Of a stretch of DNA of 64,000 nt, positions 28,877-35,645 are shown piece by piece. Every line of letters begins with the position of its first letter. Position 1 is the first letter of the stretch. Below the pieces are notes generated by a model, which was given only the letters and a program-made list of their open reading frames with translations, had not been told where the DNA came from and did no database searches. Source of the DNA: Gemmatimonadota bacterium (GTDB lineage Bacteria > Latescibacterota > UBA2968); assembly GCA_009838845.1 (NCBI GenBank), contig VXRD01000049.1, positions 1-64,000 on the forward strand. Reading direction: 5' to 3'. Both the position numbers and the translations under genes were made by a program.

Positions 28877-29054
28877 CGAATAGACGAATAGACGAATAGA
28901 CGAATAGACGAATAGACGAATAGACGAACCCCGCCCAACCACCCAAAACCTCTGGATTGCGGCTAAAATCATGCCGCAATGACGGCCTATTTGTCTATGA
29001 ACTGGCCTGAACCAGTTGTACCCCGTTCCGTTGATTCGTTGATTCGTTGATTCG
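28877..29054. repeat. structured intergenic element with inverted octamer arrays (copy 1)
   Basis: Left arm: six exact tandem copies of CGAATAGA (28877-28924), then CGAACCCCGCCCAA. Right arm: three copies of GTTGATTC (29030-29053), whose complement GAATCAAC is the same GAATNNAC pattern in inverted orientation. Between them lie two hairpins: ATTGCGGC/GCCGCAAT (28956-28980) and AACTGG/CCAGTT (29000-29017). A related element is at 35531-35645. Lies between argF and nrnA, both on the minus strand. Confidence 0.85.
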
Positions 29055-29069
29055 TGCCTTTATACCGAT

Positions 29070-30029
29070 TCACAATTGTTCGCGCACAACAGATAGCAAA
29101 CGCGCTTGCACTTCGTCAACAGTGCCTTTAATCTCGCATCCCGATGCGCGGATGTGACCGCCACCATCAAATTGACGGGCAATGCGATTGACATCCACTT
29201 TTCCCCGCGACCGCAAACTCACGCGCTGTTGTCCAGGGTCCTGTTCTTTGAAAAATAGTGCGACTTCAACCCCGTCAATCGACATCGCGTGATCGACCAC
29301 GCCATCCAGATCGCCATTCATCGCATGGGTTTTGTGATCGACGTACAATGTGCTGATTTGTCCATTTTCGTGTAGTGTTAAATTCGATAGCGCGAATCCC
29401 AGGGTTTTCACCGTTTGGTACGTTTGATGCGCAAACATGTTCTCCGCAATCTGTTGTGGGTCAGCGCCGTGCGTAACGAGTTCTGCGGCAACGCGGAGTG
29501 CGCGTTCTGGATGCGAATGTTTAAATAGCTTTGTGTCAAAAACAATTCCGGCATATAAACACGTTGCGATCTCAAATGTAAATCCCGAATTACTACGACG
29601 GGCGTGCCAGTTTATGAGCAAATAGATCAATTCACTGACAGAACTGGCATCTGGATCAATCACCCGTACATCGCCCTTCTCATCTGCATCTACATGGTGA
29701 TCAATCACCAGCGTTTTTGTCGCAGGCCCAATCAGATCCGCGACATCCCCAATGCGTTTTTTCGATGTCGTCGTATCCACTACCACGAGGCGCGGTACTA
29801 CTGGAATTGAGCTGTACACCGACTCTATGCGATCATAGCCCGGCAAAAACCGATATTTGCGATCCGGCGTCTCGTCCGCCACCACAATGCGGTGCTTCTG
29901 GTTCTGGCGCGTCAACCAGTGGCTCAACCCCAATAACGCACCGAGGCCATCGCCATCGGCATTCACATGCGTTGTCAGCACGAGTTCCTCGCCTGCCAAC
30001 AAAAAATTCAGAGCCGCTTGAAAGTCCAT
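29070..30029 (-). CDS. nrnA: DHH-family phosphoesterase, nanoRNase / pAp phosphatase type
   Basis: 319 residues from the ATG at 30029 (a TTG lies four codons upstream; no strong ribosome site). Degrades very short oligoribonucleotides and/or 3'-phosphoadenosine 5'-phosphate. Motifs: TTHVNADGDGLGA (metal His and two Asp), VVVDTTTS, the eponymous VIDHHVDADE, and the C-terminal DHHA1 motif FDGGGHIRASG. All manganese ligands of the family appear to be present. Last gene of the ftsE-ftsX-coiled-coil run, 45 bases after the previous stop. Confidence 0.9.
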   Translation of the reverse strand: MDFQAALNFLLAGEELVLTTHVNADGDGLGALLGLSHWLTRQNQKHRIVVADETPDRKYRFLPGYDRIESVYSSIPVVPRLVVVDTTTSKKRIGDVADLIGPATKTLVIDHHVDADEKGDVRVIDPDASSVSELIYLLINWHARRSNSGFTFEIATCLYAGIVFDTKLFKHSHPERALRVAAELVTHGADPQQIAENMFAHQTYQTVKTLGFALSNLTLHENGQISTLYVDHKTHAMNGDLDGVVDHAMSIDGVEVALFFKEQDPGQQRVSLRSRGKVDVNRIARQFDGGGHIRASGCEIKGTVDEVQARLLSVVREQL

Positions 30030-30074
30030 TTTTATATCCAAATGTACATATCAATGCAAGAGGATAGCTATTCG

Positions 30075-30638
30075 TCAACGTTTTAAAATCTGCTCGTGCC
30101 GACGTTTTAAAATTTGCTGTCGCCGCTTCTGAGAACTGAGTATGGTGAACAGAATATTTCCCCGTTTGCGCGCCGCCTGTAATGCCTGGACATCCCGCTG
30201 GTCCTGGTCTTTTAACCGGGACAAATACAGCATGCGTTGTGCCGCATCTCGTAGCGACTTTGCCGAAAACAACACTGAGAGTGTTCCCTGTCGTCCTATT
30301 TTGTATATTTCACGCGCACGTTGCGCTATATTCTGCTCGCGATTTTTGAGTTGTGACTCAGCCAGTCTAAGCAGTTGCTCAGTACGGTTGATTTCAATCT
30401 CCAGATTATTGATTTCCTCAGTCAAATTCAGAGATATGTCCTGAGTCTTTTCATCTGGTTGAGCCGATACTTCAGACGAGGCTTGAGGCGTTTGCAGGTC
30501 ACGCGTTTTTAAGCTGTCCATCGCCGCTTGCTCGGCTTTCAGGCGTGCTTCCAGAACTTTTATTGTCTGCGCGCTTCCGTTGGGAGATAATGCGAGTAGA
30601 AGAGCTATTATACACAATATGTACGCTGGTTTTTGCAC
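30075..30638 (-). CDS. EnvC/PcsB-like exported coiled-coil protein without peptidase domain
   Basis: 187 residues if started at the GTG at 30638, which follows TTGAGG by 6 bases and gives a clean signal peptide (KPAYILCIIALLLALSPNGSAQ minus cleavage). Two long coiled-coil stretches (about 25-50 and 70-110; EEINNLEIEINRTEQLLRL) and an REIYKIGRQGTLSVLFSAKS block that is characteristic of EnvC/PcsB-type murein hydrolase activators, which are worked by FtsEX. The M23 (LytM) domain that normally follows is absent: the protein ends KRRHEQILKR, a repeated segment, at a TGA, and only 45 bases precede nrnA. Starts 17 bases after ftsX. Either it activates an amidase encoded elsewhere, or it was truncated. 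Confidence 0.75.
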   Translation of the reverse strand: MQKPAYILCIIALLLALSPNGSAQTIKVLEARLKAEQAAMDSLKTRDLQTPQASSEVSAQPDEKTQDISLNLTEEINNLEIEINRTEQLLRLAESQLKNREQNIAQRAREIYKIGRQGTLSVLFSAKSLRDAAQRMLYLSRLKDQDQRDVQALQAARKRGNILFTILSSQKRRQQILKRRHEQILKR

Positions 30639-30655
30639 GCTATACCTCAACCATC

Positions 30656-31519
30656 CTACGCGATTTCTTTCAACACGTGGTTCAGGGATGCCCAACTGCC
30701 TATCGCGCCCAGTACGATGCCCAATGCCACCAGGCAGAATGACAGTTCAATCGTTGGTGTGACTGTCAACTCCGGTACGCGAACAGCCCACCACGGTGAT
30801 ATATAAGCCAACATCAGGGGGGCTAAAAATCCACCGATAAAACCCAATAGTGCCCCTCCAAACCCAAAGATCATCCACACAGTTATATTCGTTGCGCCGA
30901 CCAACCGCATAATCCCAATGGCATCGCGCTGCGCGAGTACCATCAACTTGGTCGCATGGCTTACTGCAAATGCACACGCAAAACACAACATACACCCAAG
31001 CGCGAGTCCAATGCCGGTGATTACTGTAATAAAATGCTCTAAGGAATCCGCCCAAACTTCTCCCACATTTACACCTTCTACAGCACTGTGACCAGTTACA
31101 GATCTTGCAACAGTTCGAGCGCGGCGCGGCATATTCTCTCCGGGCGAGATATGTACTCTGAGCGAAGCGGGCAATGGATTGCTCGAAAGCGCATCGACCG
31201 TACCCAGGCCAAATCGTGACCGAAATTCTCTGGCTGCCTCGTCCTGATCCACATACACAATTCCGGCTACCTCGGACCTTGCTTCTAACGTGCGCCGCAA
31301 TGCGAATATGCGCTGAGGTGAAATACCATCTTTTAAGTAAATGTCTATCTCCACCCGTGCGCGCAATCGGTCAACCAGCGCGTTCCCACTCTCGATGACC
31401 TGCCAGAAGAATCCCAATACCAGCAGCGATGCCCCAATGGTCGCCACAGAAATTACACCTGCGATTCTCGTACACACAACTCCTTGCCATGCCTCGCGCA
31501 ATACCAGCGACAATTTCAT
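30656..31519 (-). CDS. ftsX: FtsX-like cell-division permease
   Basis: 287 residues from the ATG at 31519. Topology as expected: first membrane helix (VISVATIGASLLVLGFFW), a periplasmic domain of about 130 residues (VEIDIYLKDGISPQRIFALR ... VGEVWADSLEHF), then three helices, with the cytoplasmic loop LAQRDAIGIMRLVGATN that contacts FtsE. Transmits a signal from FtsE to a periplasmic murein-hydrolase activator. Neighbouring genes on both sides fit this role: ftsE 17 bases upstream and the EnvC-like gene downstream. Confidence 0.92.
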   Translation of the reverse strand: MKLSLVLREAWQGVVCTRIAGVISVATIGASLLVLGFFWQVIESGNALVDRLRARVEIDIYLKDGISPQRIFALRRTLEARSEVAGIVYVDQDEAAREFRSRFGLGTVDALSSNPLPASLRVHISPGENMPRRARTVARSVTGHSAVEGVNVGEVWADSLEHFITVITGIGLALGCMLCFACAFAVSHATKLMVLAQRDAIGIMRLVGATNITVWMIFGFGGALLGFIGGFLAPLMLAYISPWWAVRVPELTVTPTIELSFCLVALGIVLGAIGSWASLNHVLKEIA

Positions 31520-31536: not shown

Positions 31537-32202
31537 TCAATTTGTGACTTGCTCAATGATGCCATTTCCCAACTGCAATATTCGCCAGGGATATCGGTTT
31601 TCCTGCACTGCATCACGTGTCGCTATGACTACAGCTATTCCGCGTGCATTTATCTTTTTAAAAATAGCCATCACCTGCTCTGTTGCCTCGGAATCCAAAT
31701 TGGCTGTTGGTTCATCTGCCAACAAGATAAGGGGATCATTCACCAGTGCCCGCGCAATTGCCACTCGTAGCCGTTCATAACCCGACAACTCATCTGGATA
31801 CACATTGCGTTTGTGCAACAAATCCACATCCGACAATATTGCCTGTGTTTTGCGCTTGATCCAGCGTCGCGAAATACCTGTTACTTCAAGCGCGAAGGCC
31901 ACATTTTCATAAACTGTGCGATGGTCTAATAGTTTGAAGTCTTGAAATACCACGCCCACTTGTCGTCGCAATCGAGGGATATCCATTTTTCGAATTTGCC
32001 GCGAGTCGTAATCTCCCACAGATACCACGCCCGAACTGGGCAATTCCGCAAATATAACCAGCCCGAGTATCGCGCGCTTTTCCGCTTCGGTCTGTCCAAT
32101 CAGATAGACAAATTCGCCCTGATTGATCTCTAAATTGGCGTCGATCAATATCGGTTGTCCCTGCTGCTCGACACCCACGTTTTGTAATTTAATCACAGGC
32201 AT
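31537..32202 (-). CDS. ftsE: FtsE-like ABC protein with degenerate nucleotide-binding motifs
   Basis: 221 residues, normal length. The family ATPase works with FtsX at the division site. Retained: Q-loop VFQDFKLL, Walker B LILLADEPT, D-loop NLDS. Altered: Walker A reads GQTEAEKRA where G-x-x-G-x-G-K-S/T is needed, so both loop glycines after the first and the Ser/Thr are replaced while Lys stays; the ABC signature is LSGYERLR instead of LSGGEQQR; and the H-loop His is Arg (VIATRD). I checked the Walker A codons directly in the sequence (GGA CAG ACC GAA GCG GAA AAG CGC), and there is no frame disturbance. ATP hydrolysis seems unlikely. The gene is still in its normal order with ftsX. Confidence 0.88.
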   Translation of the reverse strand: MPVIKLQNVGVEQQGQPILIDANLEINQGEFVYLIGQTEAEKRAILGLVIFAELPSSGVVSVGDYDSRQIRKMDIPRLRRQVGVVFQDFKLLDHRTVYENVAFALEVTGISRRWIKRKTQAILSDVDLLHKRNVYPDELSGYERLRVAIARALVNDPLILLADEPTANLDSEATEQVMAIFKKINARGIAVVIATRDAVQENRYPWRILQLGNGIIEQVTN

Positions 32203-32234: not shown

Positions 32235-32978
32235 CTATTTTTTTAGAACAAAATGCACCCGGTCCGAAAATTCTGTCGGTGGTGCATACCCAAATCCACC
32301 GTATGCTCCCACTATATCAAAAGGCGATTTATCTACAATTTCTTCAATCGCCGACAAGGAATAGATGCGCTGTTGATGCACTTCTTTGACCACTTCATCC
32401 GTGTCTTCAAAGTGAATATCAAATTTGTTGTATTGCACACCCTTCTCGTAATAGCTGTGTCGCCGATATGAAAATCCATCCCCCGAATCTTCTGACTGCA
32501 TATTGCTAAAGTATTGCCTCGAATTGCTCTCTGTACAGATATCGACCACAAAAATACCGTTGAAATTTACAATGCGATGTACTTCTTCCAGAGCACATGC
32601 GATCAGTTCGGGTGACATCAAATAGTTGATGCTATCGTACAAACACAACACGGCATCACAAGGAGGCAAATCGCTCAAATCGAGCAAATTGCGATGGTAA
32701 AATGGAATGGGATAGCGCAACTTGCGCGCCTTTTCTATAGCCATATCCAGCATTTCCCGGCAACCATCCGCACCCATCACATCGAACTTCTGACGGTATA
32801 ACTGAATTGCCAGACTACCCGTGCCACAGGCCAGGTCCAATACGCGGTTGGGTTTGACTTTGTGTCGTGCGAGCAATGACGACACATAATGCGCCCAATG
32901 TACGTAATCCACGTGTCGCATCACATGGTCGTAAATGGTCGCTAAGCGACTATAAGGTGTTGCCTCAGTAGTCGGCAT
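32235..32978 (-). CDS. class I SAM-dependent methyltransferase
   Basis: 247 residues. Motif I VLDLACGTGSLAIQL at about 45-59, an acidic residue in VMGADGCREML binding the ribose, LCLYDSINYLMSPEL and a C-terminal half typical of small-molecule methyltransferases (YYEKGVQYNKFDIHFEDTDE). Substrate not identifiable. Separated from the S4-domain gene by a terminator and from ftsE by 32 bases, so it may be the first gene of the ftsEX run. Confidence 0.88.
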   Translation of the reverse strand: MPTTEATPYSRLATIYDHVMRHVDYVHWAHYVSSLLARHKVKPNRVLDLACGTGSLAIQLYRQKFDVMGADGCREMLDMAIEKARKLRYPIPFYHRNLLDLSDLPPCDAVLCLYDSINYLMSPELIACALEEVHRIVNFNGIFVVDICTESNSRQYFSNMQSEDSGDGFSYRRHSYYEKGVQYNKFDIHFEDTDEVVKEVHQQRIYSLSAIEEIVDKSPFDIVGAYGGFGYAPPTEFSDRVHFVLKK

Positions 32979-35466: not shown

Positions 35467-35530
35467 ATACTTCGCATATAGGCTCTAACTATTGGACAGC
35501 AAATAAAGTTCCAGACGGTAAACGACAAAA

Positions 35531-35645
35531 CGAATCTACGAATCTACGAACCCCGCCCAAAAAACAACCTCAGATGGATGGGCCTCTAAATTGCATCTAT
35601 TCGCTGATTCGTCTATTCGCTGATTCGTCTATTCGTCTTCGAATA
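35531..35645. repeat. structured intergenic element with inverted octamer arrays (copy 2)
   Basis: Left arm: two copies of CGAATCTA (35531-35546) then CGAACCCCGCCCAA, the same 14 bases that follow the left arm of copy 1. Right arm: five octamers 35597-35636 alternating CTATTCGC/T and TGATTCGT, the complements of GAATAG and GAATCA units. Lies between mfd and the PpiC lipoprotein gene, both on the minus strand, ending near the mfd stop. Confidence 0.85.

Follow-up and report, generated by a model that had tools for sequence, protein, structure and literature searches.

The window, a stretch of 64,000 nucleotides, carries on its minus strand an ftsE-derived gene whose product is a predicted pseudo-ATPase, followed by ftsX and a gene for a short EnvC-like protein. 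The features of the locus are as follows.

32235..32978 (-), methyltransferase gene, the upstream flank of the ftsE-ftsX-envC slot, placed by synteny
31537..32202 (-), ftsE-derived gene for a predicted pseudo-ATPase of 221 aa with degenerate nucleotide-binding motifs
32071..32097 (-), altered Walker A motif (P-loop) GQTEAEKRA, residues 36-44, from the sequence reading and genus alignment
31942..31944 (-), Q-loop Gln87 (VFQDF), kept in the window FtsE, from alignment
31774..31788 (-), altered ABC signature LSGYE, residues 139-143, from sequence and alignment
31711..31728 (-), intact Walker B motif ILLADE, residues 159-164, from sequence and alignment
31615..31617 (-), H-loop position 196 (ATRD), arginine in place of histidine, from sequence and alignment
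30656..31519 (-), ftsX, 287 aa from the ATG at 31519, with the periplasmic FtsX_ECD domain and coupling region kept
30075..30695 (-), EnvC-like gene for a signal peptide and coiled coil with no LytM/M23 domain, an ORF of 206 aa with its likely start near 30650
30195..30335 (-), hairpin tip matching the two stretches of E. coli EnvC that bind FtsX (114-127 and 142-160), from profile alignment to PDB entries 8hd0/6tpi and genus conservation
29070..30041 (-), DHH/DHHA1 gene, the downstream flank of the slot, placed by synteny

Read on the minus strand, the ftsE frame at 31537-32202 opens with ATG and has no internal stop, and the codons are as the preliminary description had given them, with GQTEAEKRA at the P-loop, LSGYE as the signature, arginine at the H-loop and a clean frame. 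In the structure of Streptococcus pneumoniae FtsE, Walker A spans residues 37-45 with main-chain phosphate contacts from G40-K43, and the site also contains Q88, D164, the catalytic E165 and the switch residue H197 (PMC7468199). When mapped onto these positions, the window protein has glutamate for G40 and G42, arginine for S44, alanine for T45 and arginine for H197, and it retains Lys43; that is, the second and third P-loop glycines are replaced by glutamate and the Ser-Thr pair by Arg-Ala. The Walker B motif reads ILLADEP and includes D163 and E164. The protein departs from the FtsE consensus in Walker A (GxxGxGK[ST]), in the signature (LSGGE or LSGGQ) and at the H-loop histidine, and both ATP binding and ATP hydrolysis are predicted to be absent.

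The best NCBIfam match of the window protein is TIGR02673 (FtsE) at 220.5 bits (E 2e-65), which lies under the equivalog cut-off of 264.85; by the same model the congeneric genomes G002 and G008 score 230.7 and 200.3, and the intact sister G014 scores 266.5. An AlphaFold2 model (pLDDT 90.4) superposes on the solved FtsE structure 6z4w with a TM-score of 0.96, so the fold is predicted to be intact. Moreover, the gene order prsA-methyltransferase-ftsE-ftsX-envC-DHH-otc is common to the window and its relatives, some of which have extra sequence between envC and the DHH gene. Given this synteny with ftsX, and with FtsE as its closest match in both sequence and fold, the window protein is FtsE by descent.

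The neighboring FtsX has an FtsX_ECD domain (PF18075, 54.4 bits against a cut-off of 23.5, E 1.9e-14) and a permease core (PF02687, 30.5 bits against a cut-off of 25.5, E 4e-7), and it matches TIGR00439 with E 3e-52 at 177.5 bits, below the cut-off of 255. Within the genus, the FtsX region that aligns with the X-lobe is conserved. The short EnvC-like protein, which is followed within about 34 bp by the DHH gene, has a coiled-coil match to PF24568 (31 bits, cut-off 27). A direct sequence search of the PDB with this protein gave nothing useful, but a profile built with the relatives' EnvC proteins did reach EnvC; the mapping onto 8hd0/6tpi was made through this profile, with the contact residues of the FtsX-binding segments of E. 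coli EnvC taken from PMC7668044. Across the genus, no part of this protein is better conserved than the hairpin tip, which is near-invariant.

In every genus genome with a complete gene the EnvC-like protein is 193-219 aa long, as against 389-463 aa in relatives, whose orthologues continue into a C-terminal LytM region (PF01551, M23, confirmed in those scanned). No LytM/M23 domain is present in the protein from the window or from the nine other genus genomes with a complete gene. Active M23 enzymes carry an HxGxD-type motif. The relatives' LytM domain has NRGIN at that position, which suggests that it has no catalytic activity, as in the activator EnvC.

As a separate observation, head-to-tail arrays of 8-bp units (TCTATTCG and other octamers), apparently intergenic, are found in the window at 28877-28928 and 35596-35638, and also at 29029-29055 and 35530-35550; the 16-mer TCTATTCGTCTATTCG occurs 211 times in the genome as against 0 times for a reversed control.

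FtsE motifs in the genus and its relatives

The genus was sampled with 11 genomes (G000-G010), two of which, G007 and G008, are single-contig assemblies. Whole-genome searches recovered an FtsE orthologue from all 10 genomes other than that of the window, with 80-89% identity in most of them and 65% in the deepest branch, G008. All 11 proteins have a broken P-loop, with the general form G[QH]T[ED]AEKRA, EAKKRA in G005, and GQTSAETSA in G008. Outside the genus, GxxGxGK[ST] is intact in each of the 16 relatives scored at the family, order, class and phylum levels (one locus, L038 of G053, being left out of this count), including the next-nearest genera (G011-G014), and all 80 FtsE homologues taken from a public genome collection, and representing diverse phyla, have both an intact P-loop and the H-loop histidine. 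The Walker A changes are fixed in the lineage, as the preliminary description had supposed they might be, and the case that it had set against itself, alteration of a single genome, did not arise, as the 10 other members share the broken P-loop. Sequencing error and single-genome decay are ruled out by the same distribution across 11 genomes, two of them single-contig. In the literature searched, coverage of which was incomplete, no report was found of a natural FtsE that lacks the P-loop.

Other motifs vary among the members. Gly142, the second glycine of the signature, is replaced in all 11 proteins. His196 of the H-loop is lost in five of the 10 members that cover the position and kept in the other five, the eleventh contig ending before the H-loop; the absence of this histidine, which had been described for the window FtsE, holds for that protein and for half of these members. 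Similarly, the Walker B and Q-loop motifs reported as intact are so in the window protein, but the Q-loop does not stay intact genus-wide, its glutamine being replaced by arginine in G007, G008 and G009. Residues retained in most members are Lys42 (10 of 11), D163 (11 of 11) and E164 (10 of 11). The alignment suggests that both P-loop glycines had probably been lost already in the genus ancestor, with G008 later losing the lysine and the other members the serine.

No second FtsEX was found in the genus: no genome carries more than one FtsX_ECD gene, and this gene adjoins the predicted pseudo-FtsE. Among the dozens of ABC nucleotide-binding domains (NBDs) in the window genome, the next best match to FtsE is G000:C161, which is 41% identical and adjoins a MacB/LolC-type permease. 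The suggestion that a second, intact FtsE does the work is ruled out on these grounds. Moreover, because the only NBD available to form the homodimer is degenerate, both FtsE sites should be dead. The genus FtsE would almost certainly not cycle ATP, and the residues expected at its interface with FtsX are kept, in line with the original proposal of an FtsE that binds FtsX and is unable to cycle ATP.

Loss of the amidase branch and of the operon

An AmiC-like amidase (PF01520, Amidase_3, E 1e-46 to 1e-53) is present in all eight class members with an intact FtsE, and to the eye its insert looks like the regulatory one of AmiA/B/C. The enzyme is likewise present in nine outgroup genomes whose FtsE was scored as intact, for a total of 17 out of 17. 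Domain searches show that it is absent from all 11 genus genomes. In relatives the gene is flanked by smpB on one side and a dnaC-like ATPase gene on the other. In the five genus genomes checked, including the single-contig G007 and G008, the two flanking genes are immediate neighbors and leave no space for an amidase; because they adjoin, the absence represents a clean empty site rather than an assembly gap. Loss of the entire division machinery is ruled out by the presence of FtsA and FtsZ in 11 of 11 genus genomes.

The sole Amidase_3 left in the genus is of the LysM type, and several M23 proteins are also retained. The LysM-type proteins (G000-G010; loci L150, L151 and L153-L161) have LysM repeats in those read, seemingly without the AmiA/B/C insert, and this enzyme is possibly an ungated amidase. 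It is also found in relatives with an intact FtsEX, which rules it out as a new replacement. Since the LytM domain of EnvC and the AmiC-like amidase are both absent, no target reached by a known route is left for the genus FtsEX. The preliminary description had offered regulation of septal hydrolysis by a different signal, and on this point it is not supported, as the hydrolysis arm is gone and has not been re-wired; its interpretation as a whole is partly supported and may be called half right.

Three states can be distinguished in the class. The first, with intact FtsE, FtsX, EnvC with LytM, and the amidase, is seen in G011-G014, G017, G018, G020 and G021. The second, with an FtsE of degenerate nucleotide-binding motifs, FtsX, a short coiled coil and no amidase, is that of the window genus. 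In the third, the methyltransferase and DHH genes flank a cleanly empty slot in place of ftsE-ftsX-envC, and the AmiC-like amidase is absent too; this state (loci L189-L196) comprises three genomes of family f2 (G015, G016 and G019) and the five that were examined from f4 (G022-G026), the amidase empty site itself having been observed in the three f2 genomes. A FastTree phylogeny of four proteins recovers the genus as one clade with G014 as its sister, nests G015 and G016 within an otherwise intact genus, places G019 beside the intact G020 (support 0.69), and sets f4 apart. On this protein tree there have been at least three separate complete losses of ftsEX-envC and one conversion, that of the window genus, each accompanied by loss of the amidase. 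The outgroup genomes G056 and G057 have the AmiC-like amidase without an FtsE orthologue match, and the reverse was not found among the genomes checked, so the dependency between FtsE and the amidase is one-directional.

Selection on the remaining genes and competing explanations

Pairwise NG86 estimates, made mostly from draft assemblies, give dN/dS values in the genus of 0.22 for ftsE, 0.27 for ftsX and 0.29 for the coiled-coil gene, with neighboring genes at 0.07-0.19. Overall constraint on ftsE is not obviously relaxed, as the yardstick value is 0.26, obtained from the only close pair with an intact FtsE. On a tree of four-fold sites (length 2.4), neutral evolution would be expected to produce about 71 nonsense changes in ftsE, 83 in ftsX and 76 in envC, figures that are approximate because the single long G008 branch accounts for about half of the tree length. 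None is seen in the complete copies, apart from two ftsE copies that end 4 codons early, and all three frames are open in every complete genus copy (the G009 ftsE copy is cut by a contig end). These three genes are under purifying selection, and the genus operon shows neither the neutral evolution nor the disrupted frames of a pseudogene. In addition, the pattern of conservation has shifted. Walker A, the signature and Walker B are the most conserved regions of intact FtsE, whereas in the genus the catalytic regions lose this advantage (ratio of genus to intact identity 0.97-1.14, versus 1.49 overall) and the best conserved regions are the Q-loop/FtsX-facing region and the helical domain, at 0.88-0.90.

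Three losses in the genus, namely the amidase gene, the LytM domain of EnvC and the nucleotide-binding residues of FtsE, are established by sequence and synteny, and all three predate the genus split. Our favored explanation, held with moderate confidence, is that the FtsEX-EnvC-amidase pathway was dismantled in the genus ancestor, where the AmiC-like amidase gene would have been deleted as EnvC and FtsE lost these parts, and that the remnant has been kept as a constitutive, ATP-independent divisome scaffold. FtsE would dock on the Z-ring and hold FtsX, FtsX would touch the divisome through FtsA and late proteins, and the small coiled-coil hairpin would clip onto FtsX and cap or stabilize its periplasmic domains. 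Such a complex would resemble the hydrolysis-independent recruitment phase of E. coli FtsEX, and the septum would then have to be split by enzymes that FtsEX does not gate, for example the LysM-type Amidase_3 and M23 peptidases. Once neither a LytM domain nor an amidase is left to be gated, the ATP switch would no longer serve a purpose, whereas the scaffold role still would. We infer that FtsE, FtsX and the coiled coil still assemble, that the parts of FtsEX still bind FtsZ, FtsA and FtsX, and that the genus FtsE does not bind ATP even though Lys42, Asp163 and Glu164 remain in most members. The stronger statement, that FtsEX has become naturally ATP-independent throughout the genus, with FtsE acting purely as a pseudo-ATPase scaffold and little left of EnvC but a clip that binds FtsX, seems to us an evenly balanced proposition.

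Strong conservation of the FtsX periplasmic domain and the coiled-coil tip is also compatible with re-purposing, in which the ATPase was lost and FtsX with its short coiled coil recruits a different periplasmic partner, such as a LysM-type amidase or an M23 peptidase, without an ATP switch. Enzymes of both types are kept in the genus, and V. cholerae FtsEX-EnvC reportedly activates AmiB without nucleotides (as stated in PMC11139282). We consider this explanation unlikely, however, as the operon was not found to have gained a gene and the LysM-type amidase is not a tailored replacement, since relatives with an intact FtsEX have it too. Slow decay, with the operon a functionless relic heading for the complete loss seen in sister lineages, would fit the repeated emptying of this slot, which lost ftsEX-envC on at least three occasions within the class, and the different drift of the catalytic motifs among members. 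It appears distinctly improbable when set against the dN/dS values of 0.22-0.29 in all three genes, the lack of premature stops in complete copies (other than the two truncations of 4 codons) where some 71 nonsense changes would be expected in ftsE alone, and the finding that the contact surfaces are the best conserved parts.

The retention of Lys42 and the Walker B acidic residues noted above, within a fold predicted to be intact, could mean that the odd P-loop still binds nucleotide and that FtsE either binds ATP without hydrolyzing it or turns it over very slowly. Against this, substitutions have removed both P-loop glycines as well as the Ser/Thr pair, acidic residues stand at the phosphate positions, and the most divergent member lost the lysine and not the serine, implying that neither is protected; taken with the genus-wide replacement of Gly142 and the loss of the H-loop histidine in five of 10 members, these changes leave residual binding very improbable. 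That a different ABC NBD powers FtsX, as the abundance of such domains and the similarity of G000:C161 might suggest, is scarcely credible when the latter is encoded beside its own permease and the one FtsX_ECD gene per genome, at most, adjoins a predicted pseudo-FtsE that is itself under selection.

Known FtsEX systems and degenerate ABC transporters

Work on E. coli mutants has left two matters under debate, whether FtsEX has a divisome role apart from hydrolase switching and what purpose the ATP cycle serves, the roles in assembly and in hydrolase switching being hard to separate. Evolution appears to have separated them, in that three lineages lost the amidase, EnvC and FtsEX together and the window genus lost only the hydrolysis arm and the ATP site. 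The constitutive scaffold proposed here predicts that ATP cycling by FtsE is dispensable once the amidase branch has gone. If this is true, FtsEX has a selectable division function, free of hydrolase and of ATP and apart from amidase control, and the ATP cycle is needed only where there is a hydrolase to gate. The genus system would provide natural separation-of-function alleles that name the surfaces still under constraint, and suggests that a second, ATP-free structural job of the FtsEX complex can outlive its role in wall cutting. We therefore describe the genus complex as a predicted new natural variant of FtsEX, a pseudo-ATPase complex that has been maintained although its hydrolysis arm has gone.

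The genus resembles the FtsEX-EnvC-AmiA/B systems of E. coli, P. aeruginosa and V. cholerae in the folds and domains of FtsE and FtsX and in the FtsX-binding tip of EnvC (PMC7668044), but it is without a functional FtsE P-loop (as predicted), a LytM domain and an AmiC-like amidase, so that both switch and effector are missing. E. coli FtsEX is brought to the Z ring by the FtsE-FtsZ interaction, and it contacts FtsA and recruits EnvC without ATP hydrolysis (PMC7343993); midcell localisation is also preserved in the FtsE variants K41A and D162A (PMC10269673). Engineered ATP-site mutants of E. coli FtsE (K41A, D162N, D162A) are like the genus case in the site affected, and they too localise, recruitment being independent of hydrolysis (PMC7343993, PMC10269673). 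These are point mutants, however, and D162N blocks constriction when overexpressed, whereas in the genus several motifs have been lost naturally and the losses are fixed. Because septal synthesis in E. coli is blocked by overexpression of an FtsEX that cannot hydrolyze ATP (PMC7343993), a permanently idle genus FtsEX would need a compensating change, perhaps in FtsA.

Binding of FtsX to a coiled-coil partner is shared with S. pneumoniae FtsEX-PcsB and mycobacterial FtsEX-RipC, and the Pfam model CC_PcsB matches the short genus protein; in PcsB and RipC, however, a catalytic domain is part of the protein itself, and the genus coiled coil stands alone. In Caulobacter, FtsX binds the coiled coil of LdpF, and loss of FtsE is more severe than loss of LdpF or AmiC (PMC5607218), but LdpF still has a LytM domain and AmiC is retained in that species, neither of which is present in the genus. 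Finally, natural loss of catalytic residues, as in the genus FtsE, is known from ABC transporters with degenerate sites (ABCB11/BSEP, MRP1, BmrCD and TAP), although these keep one active site per transporter, which the FtsE homodimer of the genus would not.
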